Source: a virus
Length of the DNA stretch: 21,099 nt
IMG/VR virus record: IMGVR_UViG_3300029990_000063
Span: 1 to 21,099 of that record
Direction: 5' to 3' (one strand)
The position numbers were made by a program, and so were the translations under genes. Under the pieces are notes generated by a model, which was not told the origin of the DNA, ran no database searches, and saw only the letters and a list, made by a program, of their open reading frames with translations. Below are positions 1,173 to 9,094 of this stretch, in pieces. Each line of letters starts with the position of its first letter. Within the stretch, counting starts at the first letter, position 1.

Positions 1173-1318
1173 GTGTGGATTCAACAACTAAGTCAATGTA
1201 AAAATAAATATTGGAACGCCTACAAAATACAACAAAATAATACAACATAGTGTTTTTGAATAATTTATAATGTCGGTATAGGGAATCTAACGGAGTAAAT
1301 AGAGAGGATGTGCAGAAC

Positions 1319-1906
1319 ATGGATAACAACAATATAGACAGCAATTTAAAGGATCAACTTATAAAGACTAAACGTAAGTCAAACGGTAAGAACAGTCCAG
1401 TAATCGGAGATAACGGATATCTAACTAATCCAGGTGATAACAGTAAGGCTATATCAGATATGCTTTATATATATCAAATGCCACCTATAGATGTCAACAG
1501 TGATGAAGAAGTGTTGAACCGTATACAAGAGTACTTTAGTTACTGTATAGGGAAAGACATAAGGCTTGGAGTAGAAGGTCTTGCAATGGCTCTAGGTGTG
1601 AACAGGTGTACGCTTTGGGACTGGGAAACGGGTAGAAGTAGAGCAAATCTCGGTTCTTCGCGTTCCGACATCATAAAAAAAGCCAAACAATTTTTAGCAT
1701 TATATTCAGAAAATTTAGCACAGACAGGCAAGATAAATCCAGTTACTTGGATATTCCAGATGAAGAACCATTTCGGATATAAGGATGTGCAAGAGATCAG
1801 TGTCAGTGCCACTTCACCATTGGGAGAGATACCAAGCGATGCTGAGATACAAAAGAGAATTGTACAAGCAGACCCAAGTATTATTGATAGTGTTGATGAT
1901 TTCTAA
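1319..1906 (+). CDS. Terminase small subunit (Gp3-type DNA packaging protein)
   Basis: About 195 aa. The central part (GVEGLAMALGVNRCTLWDWE, then SDIIKKAKQFL and GKINPVTWIFQMKNHFGYKD) matches the Gp3-like small terminase family, whose HTH domain recognises the packaging site and whose oligomer stimulates the large subunit. The N-terminal 45 residues are polar and probably disordered; the C-terminus is acidic (DPSIIDSVDDF). I chose the ATG at 1319 because AGAGAGG lies about 11 nt upstream; a GTG at 1310 is in frame but only 2 nt from that site. The large subunit is 5.5 kb downstream rather than adjacent, which is unusual. Confidence 0.8.
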   Translation: MDNNNIDSNLKDQLIKTKRKSNGKNSPVIGDNGYLTNPGDNSKAISDMLYIYQMPPIDVNSDEEVLNRIQEYFSYCIGKDIRLGVEGLAMALGVNRCTLWDWETGRSRANLGSSRSDIIKKAKQFLALYSENLAQTGKINPVTWIFQMKNHFGYKDVQEISVSATSPLGEIPSDAEIQKRIVQADPSIIDSVDDF

Positions 1907-3070: not shown

Positions 3071-3334
3071 ATGAAATACGTCAAAAAGCCATTAGAGGTT
3101 GAAGCAATTCAATTTACTGGAACAAACGAAAGCTTAAAAGAAATTGAAGATTTTGCAAAAGAAAATTGTACAAGTGCTGAATTTCAAGGTGGAAAAGTCA
3201 TTGGATTATCCATACGGACACTTGAAATTAATTTATACGCAAGCATTGGAGACTTTGTTGTTAAAGATATTGATGGTAACTTTAGTCTCTTAAGTCCTAG
3301 AGTTTTTGAAAAGATATACGATTTATTAAATTAA
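3071..3334 (+). CDS. Small conserved phage protein (MKYxKKPxxVEAIQFTG family)
   Basis: An 87-aa protein of a type found in many Firmicutes phages. The N-terminus MKYVKKPLEVEAIQFTG, the middle 'LEINLYASIGDFVVKDIDG' and the end 'SPRVFEKIYDLL' follow the usual pattern of that family (a lid-like beta domain with a GD-(Y/F)-(I/V) turn). The biochemical role of the family is not known to me. AAAAAGGAG lies upstream. It is followed closely by the HTH/DUF3310 gene, so they are probably co-transcribed. Confidence 0.75.
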   Translation: MKYVKKPLEVEAIQFTGTNESLKEIEDFAKENCTSAEFQGGKVIGLSIRTLEINLYASIGDFVVKDIDGNFSLLSPRVFEKIYDLLN

Positions 3335-3352
3335 AAAGGAGAGTGACCCAAA

Positions 3353-4564
3353 ATGACAATGACAACAGAAGAAATAATATATAGATATAGACAAGCCATG
3401 ACCGACCACAAGAAACAAATCAAGATCATATCCGAACTAAACGGATGTCGAAAAGAAGATATCGAAAAGATACTCGCTGAGAACGGTTATATGAAACTTT
3501 TCGTCAATGGAAAGGATTTATCAATTGATATTCCTAAGATGGTCGATATGAGGACACATGGAAAGTCTCAAACAGAAATAGCCAAGCTGTACGGAACTAC
3601 TCAACCAAAAATCAGTTTATTGCTGAATGAAAAGGCTGATGAAAAGAAAAAGCAGACTGAAAAGCTTGAAAAAGAACAAAAAGAAGCTGTTGGTATGTTA
3701 TTTCGTGGCACAGACCCAGAAACTCGCAAACTTGGCGAACCGCTTGAATGGAAAAAGAGTACGGCTCCACTTCCGATGCAAAAAGAAGTCGTTGTTCCAA
3801 AACTGCCCAAACTAAGCCTTCCGATGGATGGGGAAGAAATGATATCACAACACGGAAAAGGAATCGAATGGAATTCGACATATTCAAGTCAACCTATTAC
3901 TGATAAAATAGGCAACGCTATTGCACCCGCTATAAATATAGCTATAGCCAATGCAAATAAAGATGGAAAATATGCAACTGGTGGAATCGTTAAAAACCCT
4001 CTATTTGCACCATCTTTAAATATTGGAGTTGATATTGATGATGAATCAGTTCTGAAACAAGTTGAAGCTATTGATATCATCAAAGAAAATGCAGAAGATG
4101 TGATGGCTTTTAATCAACAGTTTGTATCGCAATATTTGAAATCAAAATGTGGAGAAGAACCAATTCCAAAGGATTATCTGATATGTGATGATTTAACTGA
4201 AAAGAGTAGTCCAGAAGAGAAACAGCAATTGAATGACTTCTTGACGAAATGGACACTTCCCTTTTCCAAAACTAATGCAGCTAATGAAAAATCATATGTT
4301 AGCGGTAATCTAGCGGTTGGCGATGGTTTTACATTAAATCAAGATGGAGAAAAATTCGACCCAGTAGAACATCCAAAAGGATATTGCGTCAACGATATGG
4401 AGTCAATCGACATAATGATTTCCATCTACGGAGCTGATGCAGTAAAAACATTCTGTAAAATAACAGCATTCCAATATTTATTCCGTTGTGACCGCAAAAA
4501 TGGTGATGAAGATGTTCTGAAAGCTAATTGGTACCTAAATAAATTCAAGGAGCTATCGAAATGA
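3353..4564 (+). CDS. HTH protein with C-terminal DUF3310-like domain
   Basis: A 403-aa protein of at least three parts. Residues 20-46 (KQIKIISELNGCRKEDIEKI) resemble a short helical module seen in phage regulators. Residues 63-92 are a helix-turn-helix (GKSQTEIAKLYGTTQPKISL). Residues 93-115 are a charged helix, and 115-330 are not recognised. Residues 335-400 resemble DUF3310 (EHPKGYCVNDMESIDIM, then AFQYLFRCDRKNGDEDVLKA and NWYL), a domain also found in phage proteins called nucleotide kinases without proof. Combining a sequence-reading HTH with DUF3310 suggests a DNA-bound regulator or a modular defence or nucleotide-related protein; this is inference. GGAGAG lies about 9 nt upstream, and the stop overlaps the next start (ATGA). 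Confidence 0.65.
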   Translation: MTMTTEEIIYRYRQAMTDHKKQIKIISELNGCRKEDIEKILAENGYMKLFVNGKDLSIDIPKMVDMRTHGKSQTEIAKLYGTTQPKISLLLNEKADEKKKQTEKLEKEQKEAVGMLFRGTDPETRKLGEPLEWKKSTAPLPMQKEVVVPKLPKLSLPMDGEEMISQHGKGIEWNSTYSSQPITDKIGNAIAPAINIAIANANKDGKYATGGIVKNPLFAPSLNIGVDIDDESVLKQVEAIDIIKENAEDVMAFNQQFVSQYLKSKCGEEPIPKDYLICDDLTEKSSPEEKQQLNDFLTKWTLPFSKTNAANEKSYVSGNLAVGDGFTLNQDGEKFDPVEHPKGYCVNDMESIDIMISIYGADAVKTFCKITAFQYLFRCDRKNGDEDVLKANWYLNKFKELSK

Positions 4565-4710: not shown

Positions 4711-4777
4711 CAATATAATTAAGCGTGAAATTCAAGCCATAGAAACTTGCGAAGCCTATGTGTAGTTAAAGCCTACT

Positions 4778-4926
4778 TGGATAGTGGCGGAAAGGGTACA
4801 CGCTAGATAAAACGCTGTTCGTTGTAAGTAAGTGATGCGATGACCCCATCTATTCTTACACGAGAGGTAGTATCGAGAGAAACTATCGTCGGAAATCATA
4901 TAGGGTTCGAATCCCTATCTATCCAA
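4778..4926 (+). ncRNA. tRNA-like structured RNA (pseudo-tRNA or tRNA mimic)
   Basis: The 3' end carries an unmistakable T arm: ATAGGG-TTCGAAT-CCCTAT (4900-4918), followed by CTATCC. The 5' end has the matching GGATAG (4779-4784; TGGATAG/CTATCCA pairs fully if 4778 is included), then TGGCGGAAAGGGTACACGC, which reads like a tRNA-Leu D arm (GCG pairing with CGC). The element is about 149 nt, roughly 65 nt longer than tRNA-Leu. No normal 17-nt anticodon arm follows the D arm. Instead there is an extended hairpin TGTAAG/CTTACA (4823-4828, 4855-4860) with an inner GATG/CATC, and a second hairpin GGTAGT/ACTATC (4866-4871, 4882-4887). There is no encoded CCA tail. A TATAAT at 4714-4719 could start it. 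It may be a degenerate or insertion-bearing tRNA, or a cloverleaf mimic. Confidence 0.5.
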
Positions 4927-5118: not shown

Positions 5119-5297
5119 ATCCAACAGACCAAGAACTATATAATTATCTTTCTAAACTTGAAACTAGCATAGAATCTCATTTGCATAATTACTGTATGTA
5201 CTGTATCGAGGAACATTGCATAATGAATAAAATTGACATAGAAATCAAGGAAGATAGAAAGCATTTATGGGAAACCAAGCAAGGAGAACCCAAATGA
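5115..5297 (+). CDS. Unrecognised small protein with Cys/His cluster (60 aa)
   Basis: Coupled by ATGA overlap at both ends. Residues 22-35 (H22, H24, C27, C30, H34, C35; CMYCIEEHC) could bind a metal ion, but the spacing is not a standard zinc knuckle. The rest is polar and helical. The upstream GGTGA is a weak ribosome binding site, so translation may rely on coupling. Function unknown. Confidence 0.6.
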   Translation: MNPTDQELYNYLSKLETSIESHLHNYCMYCIEEHCIMNKIDIEIKEDRKHLWETKQGEPK

Positions 5298-5704
5298 CAA
5301 ATTATGAATTTTTACAATCATTAAAGATTGAAGATACGGCAGATGTACTTGAATTATTTTGTCTGACAGCAGAATTTAATGGATTTGATATTAGAATGGA
5401 TTTATCAGAATACAAAGAACGATTAGTCGTAAGAAGAGAATATCTAAAAAAATACGAAGATTATAGCCATTGGTTAAACCCAGGCACATTAACTTGGTTG
5501 AAACGTACATACGATGGTAAAACCGTATATGAAAGTGTACAAGGATGGACAATTGAAGAGTGGGCGAGCTTCATAGGATATTTATGTATATCACACCGAT
5601 TAAGAATTGCTGTTATTGTTGGATATGATGATTGTAATACTCATAAGCGAGGATGTTCGCCACCTGAAAGATATGTAGATTGGTTGATGGATGAATACAA
5701 ATAA
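5294..5704 (+). CDS. Unrecognised phage protein (136 aa)
   Basis: I place the start at the ATG at 5294: AAGGAG lies at 5281-5286 and the ATG overlaps the upstream stop. A longer in-frame start 27 nt upstream lacks these signals. The protein has helices (TADVLELFCLTAEFNGFDI), a Trp-rich middle (SHWLNPGTLTWLKRTY; GWTIEEWASF) and a hydrophobic segment (LRIAVIVGYDD). The C-terminus, CSPPERYVDWLMDEY, is of a kind common at the ends of small phage proteins. No enzyme motif seen. Its stop overlaps the next start by one base (TAATG). Confidence 0.65.
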   Translation: MTNYEFLQSLKIEDTADVLELFCLTAEFNGFDIRMDLSEYKERLVVRREYLKKYEDYSHWLNPGTLTWLKRTYDGKTVYESVQGWTIEEWASFIGYLCISHRLRIAVIVGYDDCNTHKRGCSPPERYVDWLMDEYK

Positions 5705-6223: not shown

Positions 6224-6628
6224 ATGGAAAATTCAAAAATCAGAATTGAATCTGATGGAAGAGTGATAACCCAAATTTACATTGACGGAGAAAAAGTGAA
6301 TCGAGCAATAAAATGTGACTTTTACGCAGAAGTTGGAAAAGTAGCTTGTATTGTTGAAAAACTTGAAACAGATGAATCGGGGAAAATAATTCTTGAAAAC
6401 GATGAAACTGTTAAGGGAATAGCTTTTGAATTAAATCAAGACTATATTATTTCGAATGCTAAATCAATAATTGATAAATCTTTGAAATTAGATAAAAGCC
6501 CTAACAGTTGGTATTATTCTTGGCAAGCGAATTTAGCTATGATGATTCACGACAATTCAGAAATTGATGTTGACAAGGCGAATGAGATAGCTAAGAAGTT
6601 CCTTGATAGATTGATTGGGGATGAATGA
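6224..6628 (+). CDS. Accessory protein with shared N-terminal beta domain (134 aa)
   Basis: Residues 1-72 begin MENSKIRIESDGRVITQIYI and are about two thirds identical by eye to the same region of the protein at 6907-7410. The domain is strand-rich. Residues 75-134 are unrelated to that paralogue: they are helical with Trp and Tyr residues (NSWYYSWQANLAMMIHD) and end in an acidic helix. One N-terminal domain on two different tails suggests domain shuffling or duplication followed by divergence. Function unknown. Confidence 0.7.
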   Translation: MENSKIRIESDGRVITQIYIDGEKVNRAIKCDFYAEVGKVACIVEKLETDESGKIILENDETVKGIAFELNQDYIISNAKSIIDKSLKLDKSPNSWYYSWQANLAMMIHDNSEIDVDKANEIAKKFLDRLIGDE

Positions 6629-6629
6629 T

Positions 6630-6905
6630 ATGGGTGAAAATGATGAAAATTCAAAAATCGGTTATATGGTCAATGGAGAATTTAAAGAAATTAGTCCAAT
6701 CACATTAGAAACAAACCCACCGACATTTGATTATGAACGCAGAACCGACTTCGATGGTGGCTCAATGACTATTGAACTCATATATGGTTCGACCGAAGCA
6801 CTTAAGCAAATGGGAATTCTTATAGATTTGAAACATTTACGAGAATATACGAATAATTGGCGCAAGATTCATCATTTGACAAAGAGAAGAAAGAAGGTTA
6901 GATGA
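6630..6905 (+). CDS. Unrecognised phage protein between two paralogues (91 aa)
   Basis: The ATG at 6630 is preferred: it lies one base after the upstream stop (TGATATG), with GGGG about 9 nt before it, matching the neighbouring junctions. TTG (6615) and ATG (6621) are in frame further upstream. The sequence is strand-rich (GYMVNGEFKEISPITLE; GGSMTIELIYGS), with a basic tail (HHLTKRRKKVR) that could contact nucleic acid. Function unknown. Confidence 0.6.
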   Translation: MGENDENSKIGYMVNGEFKEISPITLETNPPTFDYERRTDFDGGSMTIELIYGSTEALKQMGILIDLKHLREYTNNWRKIHHLTKRRKKVR

Positions 6906-6906
6906 T

Positions 6907-7410
6907 ATGGAAAATCCAAAAATTAGAATCGAATCAGATGGGAAAATAATAACCCAAGTTTACATTGATGGAGAAAAAGTGAACCAAGCAACTATGTGTG
7001 ATTTACATTTTCACGCAGAAGTCGGAGAAGTATCTTGCGTCGTTGAAAGACTCAAAACAGACGAGCATGGAAAAGTGATTCATATAAATGATAAAATCGT
7101 TAGGGAAATAGCATTTGAAATTAAGCCTAAAATAGTTATTTTGAAAAATGGAGAACAAATGAAATCAAAGGTTTCTGTAACCATAAAAGCTACTGGACAA
7201 ATAATAGATATGATGGAATTTACTATTCCAGTGTATTCCAAAGCTAGATGGGAAAATAGACGCTTTTCTCGAAATGTAAGTCGGTTTATTTCCGACTTAT
7301 CAATAATATCTTTTGGTGAGTTTTCAGAAATCGAAGTATTATATCCAGATGGGACAATAAGAACAACAACTGTATATCAGACAACTGAATCAGATTTGAT
7401 TGAAAAATAA
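6907..7410 (+). CDS. Accessory protein with shared N-terminal beta domain (167 aa)
   Basis: Residues 1-74 are a paralogue of the N-terminal domain at 6224-6628. Residues 75-167 are different: strand-rich, with a basic patch (SKARWENRRFSRNVSRFI) and a second beta unit (SEIEVLYPDGTIRTTTVYQ). It starts one base after the upstream stop. It is the last gene of the accessory island; the repeat leader of the large terminase follows. No recognised function. Confidence 0.7.
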   Translation: MENPKIRIESDGKIITQVYIDGEKVNQATMCDLHFHAEVGEVSCVVERLKTDEHGKVIHINDKIVREIAFEIKPKIVILKNGEQMKSKVSVTIKATGQIIDMMEFTIPVYSKARWENRRFSRNVSRFISDLSIISFGEFSEIEVLYPDGTIRTTTVYQTTESDLIEK

Positions 7411-7465: not shown

Positions 7466-9094
7466 ATGGCAATATCAATAAAAAATGCAAAACTGATTGA
7501 TACAATTAAAAAATTAGACCTAACTAAATTCTCGAATCTTGATTTGCTATTTGAAACCGCAAGAAAAATTCAAGACGAAGATAATGACTATTCAATGGTT
7601 GTTGCTAATGCCGTCAAGAATAGGGCATCAAAATTAGTTGTTAAAGATAAAAACTTTTATGGATTATATACAAAATGCTTATTGTTCAGGGCGCCGTATT
7701 TCTTTGAAGATTATCTTCTGTATATGGAAAAAGATAGAGAAGTCTTAAAACAATTCTATATGCCAAGGCGAAGAACCTTAAAAATCGTTGTTGATGATCT
7801 ACAAGACTTGGAAGATGGAATAATTAAGTTTTTAGGTGTTTCAATGCCTTCACGAACTGGAAAATCAACTTTATGTATATTTTTTATGAGTTGGGTTATG
7901 GGTAGGAATCCAGATAAGGCAAACCTAATGTCTGGTCATTCCGATAAGTTGACCAAAGGATTCTACAAAGAAGCATTTAACTTTATTGAAAATACTGAAT
8001 ATAACTTCGCTGATATATTCCCAACGGTCAAAGTCGAAAGCAAGTCTGCAGATGATGAATCAGTAAACTTAAATTCCAAAACTAGATTTCCAACATTAAC
8101 TTGTAGATCCATTGATGGAACATTGACCGGTGCAGTTGAAGCCGAAAACTATTTATATTGCGATGATTTAATTCGAGATAGAACAGAAAGTTTGAATCCG
8201 CAGCGACTTGAAGATAAATATCAAAGTTACTTGAATGTTTTAGTTGATAGAAAAAAAGATGGCTGCAAAGAGTTGATGGTCGGGACCAGGTGGAATCTAT
8301 TTGACCCACTTGGAAGAATTGAAAGAGATTATTGCAATAATCCATTATATAGATTTAGAAAATTACCGGCTCTTGATGAAAATGAACAATCTAATTTCTG
8401 CTATGACTATAACAAAGGATTCTCAACAGCATACTACCTGGATATTAAACATCGACTCGATAATAACGAATGGATGTCAAAATATCAACAGTCACCATAT
8501 TTACGAGAGGGACTATTATTTCCAGAGGAACAACTTAAAACTTTCAACGGAACATTGCCAGATGAAAGCGCATTAGTCCGTAAGGTTGCAATTTGTGATG
8601 TATCTTGGGGCGGAGATTTCTTGTCAATGCCGTTTGCCTATATATACCAAGATGGTTCAGTGTACATTGTAGACGCTGTATTCAATAATGGTGATAAAGA
8701 TACCACTCGACCAATTGTAGTCGGTAAAACGCTTCACCATAGACCTAATCAAGAACATTTCGAAGCTAATAACGGGGGTCACGAATACGCAGATAGAGTT
8801 GATGGAGAATTACAACTAGCCGGATATACTTGCAGCGTAACTTCTGCAATGGCACCATCCAACGTAAGCAAGATATCAAGAATCGTTCAGTACCAAACAG
8901 ATATTAGAAGTTATTATTACCTGGATGCAACACATAGAGATAAGGATTATAGAGATTTTATCAACAACTTAACGATGTTCGTACAAATCGGAAAAAATGA
9001 TCACGATGACGCGGCTGACAGTTTGGCGCAGTTAGCAGCATTTTTAGAAGGCGGAATGATTGCAAAATGCGAACCTTTCCGTAGACCTTGCTAG
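7466..9094 (+). CDS. terL: Terminase large subunit
   Basis: A 542-aa packaging motor with N-terminal ATPase and C-terminal nuclease. Walker A is at 128-135 (PSRTGKST), Walker B at 229-234 (YLYCDD) and the coupling motif at 272-276 (VGTRW). The RNase H-like nuclease starts near D378 (VAICDVSWGGDF), and its last acidic site is near the end (NDHDDAADSLAQLAAFLEGG). The length is normal. It pumps DNA through the portal and cuts concatemers together with the small subunit. It follows the accessory island, with its own repeat-bearing leader and a GTGGTG ribosome binding site, and ends in TAG. Its separation from the small subunit by over 5 kb is unusual. Confidence 0.95.
   Translation: MAISIKNAKLIDTIKKLDLTKFSNLDLLFETARKIQDEDNDYSMVVANAVKNRASKLVVKDKNFYGLYTKCLLFRAPYFFEDYLLYMEKDREVLKQFYMPRRRTLKIVVDDLQDLEDGIIKFLGVSMPSRTGKSTLCIFFMSWVMGRNPDKANLMSGHSDKLTKGFYKEAFNFIENTEYNFADIFPTVKVESKSADDESVNLNSKTRFPTLTCRSIDGTLTGAVEAENYLYCDDLIRDRTESLNPQRLEDKYQSYLNVLVDRKKDGCKELMVGTRWNLFDPLGRIERDYCNNPLYRFRKLPALDENEQSNFCYDYNKGFSTAYYLDIKHRLDNNEWMSKYQQSPYLREGLLFPEEQLKTFNGTLPDESALVRKVAICDVSWGGDFLSMPFAYIYQDGSVYIVDAVFNNGDKDTTRPIVVGKTLHHRPNQEHFEANNGGHEYADRVDGELQLAGYTCSVTSAMAPSNVSKISRIVQYQTDIRSYYYLDATHRDKDYRDFINNLTMFVQIGKNDHDDAADSLAQLAAFLEGGMIAKCEPFRRPC

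Follow-up and report, generated by a model that had tools for sequence, protein, structure and literature searches.

What is encoded by a gene whose RNA begins and ends like a transfer RNA (tRNA) and carries nothing like an anticodon arm in between? This question is raised by positions 4778–4926 of the viral record IMGVR_UViG_3300029990_000063, whose stretch of 21,099 nucleotides (nt), referred to here as the window, encodes a portal protein, a capsid protein, and both terminase subunits of a tailed phage. The initial annotation described the element as an oversized tRNA-like RNA with a T arm, a Leu-like D arm, and no normal anticodon arm, and all of these parts could be found. It left the choice between a tRNA with a small insertion, a decayed tRNA, and a tRNA mimic, and it is the mimic that fits our data. 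As judged from sequence comparisons, the window RNA is almost certainly a member of a phage family of tRNA-like RNAs in which the anticodon arm has been replaced. The comparisons show these RNAs to be, by all sequence indications, non-decoding and horizontally spread, with a tRNA-like domain under selection and a fast-changing insert.

Results

The RNA comprises 149 nt on the plus strand, from the acceptor stem to the discriminator base, with the layout TGGATAG-TG-GCGGAAAGGGTACACGC-[96 nt]-ATAGGG-TTCGAAT-CCCTAT-CTATCCA-A (4778–4926), and was identified with a scanner for tRNA arms and with a covariance model, R1. This model was built from 16 members of the family, with the window excluded and only the arms given as structure, and it places the RNA at 4778–4926 with 58.7 bits (E=1.6e-16). 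Ordinary tRNA-Leu genes reach 26.5–37 bits under R1, and part of the score is therefore generically tRNA-like, the margin nevertheless being wide. The 5′ acceptor strand TGGATAG (4778–4784) pairs at seven of seven positions with CTATCCA (4919–4925), with pair probabilities of 0.81–1.0 and the support of covariation in the family. The connector residues U8 and G9 follow (4785–4786, assigned from the sequence and the family alignment), and then the D arm GCG-GAAAGGGTACA-CGC (4787–4803; pair probability 0.70), which corresponds to the D arm of the family and contains A14, G18, G19, and a type-1 D loop. The T arm (4900–4918; pair probabilities 0.77–0.96) consists of the loop TTCGAAT on the stem ATAGGG/CCCTAT, which with six base pairs (bp) is one above the usual, so that acceptor and T stem add up to 13 bp. 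The discriminator position 73 is A (4926), and CCA is not encoded. The elbow of tRNAs is built by U8, A14, G18, G19, G53, U54, U55, C56, A58, and C61, and every one of these residues is kept in the window RNA, in which the D loop GAAAGGGTACA and the T loop TTCGAAT represent a matched type-1 pair (GAAAGGG with UUCG).

This combination of parts is not expected by chance, as none of 300 Markov-generated copies of the window gave the scanner a strict match to acceptor, D arm, and T arm. The RNA also escapes the usual tools: ARAGORN calls it neither a tRNA nor a transfer-messenger RNA (tmRNA), Rfam matches to tRNA, tmRNA (RF00023), or YrlA (RF02553) are absent even at E<=1, and the window RNA contains no 5-bp stem with a 7-nt loop able to hold an anticodon. 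The z-score of the folding energy is −2.0 for the whole RNA and −1.2 for the central domain alone. A BLAST search for homologues of the whole RNA in hosts or phages gave none, because the inserts of related RNAs are unrelated.

The relatives became visible when viral contigs were scanned for the D arm of the window alone (TGGCGGAAAGGGTANACGC). Among the 119 viral places that were found, 110 have the same architecture, in which the acceptor comprises 7 bp and the T stem 6 bp. These 110 places represent 57 distinct sequences of 89–223 nt, which fall into 26 clusters with unrelated central domains, and the 13-bp (7+6) acceptor/T helix is present in 57 of 57. None of the 57 is recognized by ARAGORN in its tRNA and tmRNA modes, and none has a tag frame. 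The members lack a usable anticodon and hardly ever encode CCA, and their discriminator base varies, with U in many of the Enterococcus RNAs. In the phage group of the window, R1 detects members upstream of the terminase genes at loci L219, L212, L202, L184, L139 (two members), L233, L155, and L201, all with a 6-bp T stem and mostly with different acceptor sequences. A scan of the viral contigs with the window's own T-stem sequence added just one further cluster. At locus L260 and seven further loci, on contigs of Enterococcus-type prophages, the family D arm is followed by unrelated sequence, apparently in broken copies.

Selection on the scaffold is evident from covariation. In the acceptor and T stems of 21 representatives, 98.8% of the cells are paired and 11 of the 16 pairs have changed two-sidedly, which was matched by 0 of 500 shuffles; when the partner is slid by one column, pairing falls to about 38%. 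The compensating changes that the initial annotation had suggested looking for in the acceptor stem are found at the level of the family. The two loops covary as well: a GAAAGGG D loop goes with U55 of the T loop in 58 of 58 sequences and a D loop of the GAA(T/C)AGG type with G55 in 17 of 18, in counts that include kinship, as would be expected for a formed elbow.

In place of the anticodon arm, the window RNA has a central domain of 96 nt (4804–4899, beginning with TA and ending with CAT, delimited by sequence and family comparison), which is about double the length found in ordinary Leu tRNAs. The two extra hairpins noticed in the initial annotation both reappear in the predicted fold. The first, P1 (4823–4860), pairs TGTAAG (4823–4828) with CTTACA (4855–4860), mostly at a probability of 0.86 with 0.43 for the outermost pair, and encloses GATG (4834–4837) paired with CATC (4847–4850) at 0.84; the second (4866–4887) pairs GGTAGT (4866–4871) with ACTATC (4882–4887) at 0.87–0.93. 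Across the family, the central domains measure about 24–180 nt and diversify rapidly, and most of them are closed by a helix. The 13 nt that immediately precede the T stem pair better with the member's own insert than with the inserts of others (13.8 vs 11.5; 38 members; permutation p=5e-5), and this closing helix, P2, usually stops 1–3 nt ahead of the T stem. AT stands at the end of the insert, just before the T stem, in 37 of 49 distinct inserts. In many members, the 5′ strand of P2 lies inside the loop of another helix and thus forms a pseudoknot (combined p=9e-8, 24 clusters). Random decay without inner covariation, which would have spoken against a maintained RNA, is therefore not what the family displays, given the covarying arms and this pairing of the tail with the insert.

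The gene is also present in cultured phages. With the acceptor and D arm as a 31-nt query, 52 records of an annotated phage collection were matched; the matched stretch is without annotation in 51 of them and is labelled tRNA-Leu in one. Fifteen of the 16 named phages that we examined have the 13-bp architecture, namely the Enterococcus phages EFDG1, phiSHEF13, vB_OCPT_Ben, vB_Edu_21C1, EFP01, VEsP-1, and EH-TP1, the phages R29.1 of Lacticaseibacillus, Lb338-1 and Lenus of Lactobacillus, and H1-Guo of Lactiplantibacillus, as well as Leuconostoc phage phiLM33_01, Weissella phage WC29P3, Brochothrix phage BtpYZU01, and the thermophilic phage D6E; the sole exception is Flavobacterium phage FL-1 with a 12-bp form. 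EFDG1, a 148-kb myovirus of the Herelleviridae, and VEsP-1, a 39-kb phage, are 98.6% identical over 209 nt that comprise the RNA, with a predicted length of 205 nt, and 4 nt, without similarity beyond these 209 nt in the flanks compared, and the RNA gene therefore moves as a unit. The predicted RNA of EH-TP1 is shorter, at 131 nt. In EFDG1-type phages, the gene belongs to a tRNA array and lies 2 nt behind the phage tmRNA. Such a tmRNA, with the tag AKNEELLAVA, directly precedes a family member in Enterococcus Schiekvirus loci (L367 2151–2501, L370 1151–1501, L372 1151–1501). In 17 family loci, Rfam 15 at gathering score left the family unmatched, and full-text searches of open-licence papers found no description of the 13-bp family, although a subscription paper could contain one.

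Genomic setting

In the window, the RNA gene sits among small genes between the small terminase gene (1310–1906, plus strand; phrog_606, E=1.8e-13) and the large terminase gene (7466–9094, plus strand; phrog_38, E=3.6e-46), which bound the cassette upstream and downstream and lie on the same strand as the RNA. The initial annotation had placed it between small accessory genes rather than in a tRNA cluster; the first part is correct for the window, but relatives carry tRNAs or tRNA-like RNAs at the same place. This emerged from distant relatives collected via the terminase, whose hosts are mostly Lachnospiraceae and other Clostridia: at 105 loci, ARAGORN finds 87 tRNAs upstream and 1 downstream of the large terminase gene, and non-canonical tRNA-like RNAs number 25 upstream and 2 downstream, with 0 on the minus strand. 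In temperate-type phages, the family RNA is flanked by the late activator (phrog_248/ArpU/DUF1492) on one side and by terminases of several unrelated families on the other, and other members occur in tRNA arrays. The family spans phages of many Firmicutes.

The closest relative, L002, has an 85% identical terminase and carries a decayed tRNA-Ser(GCU) instead of the tRNA-like RNA. The two phages share a 5′ leader that ends right before the RNA of the window (4714–4776, plus strand; blastn, 90% over 63 nt; 4306–4368 in L002). It contains three copies of AAGCC, two of them AAGCCTA, the RNAs that follow it differ, and it could be a promoter, a processing element, or a protein-binding element. The gene beside the RNA (3353–4564) encodes a 403-aa protein with a helix-turn-helix-like stretch and a C-terminal DUF3310 domain; a search with this protein found nothing.

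Several other RNAs were seen in related cassettes. A relative of the window phage, L011, contains a ROOL RNA (6512–7063, 345 bits) within its tRNA/tRNA-like cassette, and on two viral contigs Hammerhead II and Pistol ribozyme matches (L105 9217–9291; L261 6582–6655) lie within about 1 kb of tRNA-like RNAs. The large phage contig L047 has, at 3272–3422 and 5133–5327, a tRNA with encoded CCA apparently nested in the anticodon loop of another tRNA, the outer tRNA at 3272–3422 being Leu UAA. A second non-canonical tRNA-like RNA, Family A, measures 80–85 nt and has covarying arms around a mostly near-invariant insert (GCGGTGCGCACC..AAAACAG..GAGAGC); it is common to Lachnospiraceae and Gordonia phages (L140 5233–5316, L212 2891–2974, L233 6082–6165, L246 6792–6875 on the minus strand, L158 4886–4969, L239 2495–2575, L240, L241), and in Gordonia phage Smoothie it is labelled tRNA-OTHER (Undetermined).

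A parallel group with a 12-bp helix, distinct from the 13-bp family of the window, made up most of what an earlier pattern with the common Leu D loop (TGGCGGAANNGG...) had caught. Here, 40 of 49 ARAGORN-negative RNAs, with 30 different sequences, have seven of seven acceptor pairs, as compared to a mean of 2.9 and a maximum of 9 in shuffled controls and 2 of 62 tandem-tRNA controls. Arms of this group occur in L078 (4495–7219, minus strand), in an array of tRNA-like RNAs that reuses the acceptor AGTCAGG/CCTGACT with varied inserts and is interspersed with ordinary tRNAs, and about ten more contigs contain the same arms. When 397 Lachnospiraceae genomes were scanned twice for oversized RNAs with Leu-type arms, two apparent tandems of ordinary tRNAs and two real tRNA-like RNAs were returned.

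Discussion

The identity of the window RNA is thus much firmer than its function. Our best explanation as a whole, identity and mechanism together, is a non-decoding tRNA mimic that may occupy tRNA-handling enzymes, and we put it forward tentatively. The RNA would be transcribed together with the late/packaging operon, its ends would be matured by host RNase P, RNase Z, and the CCA-adding enzyme, and it would fold into a tRNA-shaped elbow that is unable to decode. The stable mimic could then act in trans by occupying or inhibiting host enzymes that bind tRNA, with tRNA-targeting defence nucleases or other tRNA-handling factors as the likeliest targets, and the variable insert may tune the target or keep the RNA off the ribosome. 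We favour a mimic directed against tRNA-targeting defences because phage tRNAs are known to counteract such systems (PMC10264068, PMC11555353), because there are effectors that recognize nothing but the acceptor and the T arm, as Cas12a3 does (PMC12851939), and because YrlA, whose tRNA-like domain lacks an anticodon, is a proposed inhibitor of a tRNA nuclease (PMC7790460).

Several points weigh against this explanation. The arms alone would suffice for a decoy, but the insert has been maintained and has diversified, as would equally be expected of a separate effector domain. Since the genes hardly ever encode CCA, it is an assumption that a mature 3′ end is charged or bound. The invariance of the D arm is partly imposed by our search pattern. 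Finally, the closing helix of the window RNA itself is weak (rank 0.66; pseudoknot p=0.24), and its inner fold is therefore a single-sequence prediction.

The first of these points leads to an alternative that is nearly as likely as the favoured mimic, the two likelihoods being close, although taken by itself it is still rather unlikely: the tRNA-like ends may serve only maturation and stability, and the pseudoknotted insert may do the work as an antisense, protein-binding, or regulatory RNA. The arms are constant and the inserts unrelated across 26 clusters, inserts in the 12-bp group have better folds than segments drawn at random from the same phages (p=1.7e-4), and the insert of Family A is nearly invariant while its arms covary. 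On the other side, no insert-associated protein gene was seen, and the longest complementarity of the window insert to its own genome, 9 nt vs a shuffled mean of 10.3, is within chance, so that an antisense action on the phage's own genome was rejected for the window.

An improbable alternative is that the element is a processing site in cis, at which RNase P and RNase Z divide the operon into an early and a late portion and release a functionless RNA. Its same-strand placement upstream of the terminase genes in many phages would agree with this, but ordinary tRNAs would serve equally well there, the insert would not need a covarying helix of its own, and the gene, which unrelated phages have exchanged precisely up to its ends, occurs in tRNA arrays beside tmRNA as well.

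Two further possibilities are both very unlikely. In tmRNA, the tRNA-like domain is at the ends, the large insert is pseudoknotted, and a closing helix lies beside the T arm. The family RNA is like tmRNA (RF00023) in its end domain, its pseudoknotted insert, and its closing helix near the T arm, and the order of acceptor, D arm, closing helix/pseudoknot, and T arm recalls that of P2 and the tRNA-like domain in tmRNA, so that a tmRNA-type RNA of reduced size, interfering with trans-translation, may be considered, the more so as a member begins 2 nt after the phage tmRNA in EFDG1 and its relatives. However, the family RNA is much shorter, has no tag frame, a proper 3-bp D stem, a helix of 13 instead of 12 bp, and no G3-U70, and members are unmatched by the Rfam tmRNA model, under which the adjoining tmRNA scores 131–146 bits. 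The RNA could also be an aminoacylated donor of amino acids outside the ribosome, given that leucyl-tRNA synthetase does not read the anticodon. The window RNA has the Leu-type D arm and A73, and the T loop of type-2 members is GUGC-like, as in the non-proteinogenic staphylococcal tRNA-Gly. Charging with leucine is nevertheless disfavoured because many relatives, among them many Enterococcus members, have U73; the discriminator varies family-wide, and the 13-bp helix also argues against it.

Even less probable is a Leu tRNA whose anticodon loop is interrupted by a small intron or insertion and which would be spliced to a functional tRNA. The window RNA shares the D arm GGCGGAA..GG.A.ACGC, the T arm, and A73 with bacterial tRNA-Leu, and phage tRNAs interrupted in the anticodon loop exist (L047). 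We tried and rejected this reading: a closing anticodon stem is not enriched in 49 oversized Leu-like RNAs and in the window is not above chance (p=0.68), the window RNA has no anticodon arm and 96 nt of central domain, its acceptor/T helix of 13 rather than 12 bp is foreign to ordinary tRNAs, the discriminator is often U in relatives, and the inserts have no Rfam intron matches. Least credible of all is a pseudogene that keeps its tRNA ends by chance, despite the decayed tRNA-Ser(GCU) at the same place in L002, as the arms and elbow residues of the window RNA are perfect, the acceptor and T stems covary, and the family recurs in phages of many host genera.

Comparison with other known systems helps to delimit the family. 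YrlA (RF02553), a bacterial Y RNA, likewise does not decode and mimics tRNA via its D and T arms (PMC7790460), but the family RNA has a true acceptor stem made from its 5′ and 3′ ends, and no Ro60-type gene, as judged by the TROVE domain, was seen among the 10 cassette proteins scanned. Phage tRNAs that resist tRNA-targeting defences are also phage-borne in tRNA cassettes and share with the family a possible part in countering tRNA-targeting systems, but they decode and have changes in the anticodon loop (PMC10264068, PMC11555353), whereas the family RNAs cannot decode. ROOL and GOLLD are likewise structured phage RNAs near tRNA islands, with unknown function, and ROOL even occurs in the L011 cassette, but they are unrelated to the family RNA in size and structure (PMC12286853).

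RNAs with tRNA-like domains are thus already known from tmRNA and YrlA, and there is a real chance that the 13-bp family merits a class of its own. We can imagine, more tentatively still than the mimic, that this is an undescribed phage RNA family in which a constant tRNA-like scaffold of 13 bp carries a hypervariable pseudoknotted effector domain and which unrelated phages swap gene by gene as a module for counter-defence or host takeover; scaffold and effector RNA would then be a non-coding analogue of modular anti-defence proteins. A single odd sequence has in any case become a recognizable RNA family that annotation tools have overlooked even in cultured phages, and, if a non-decoding mimic is indeed produced from late phage operons, this would bear on the question of why phages carry tRNA cassettes.
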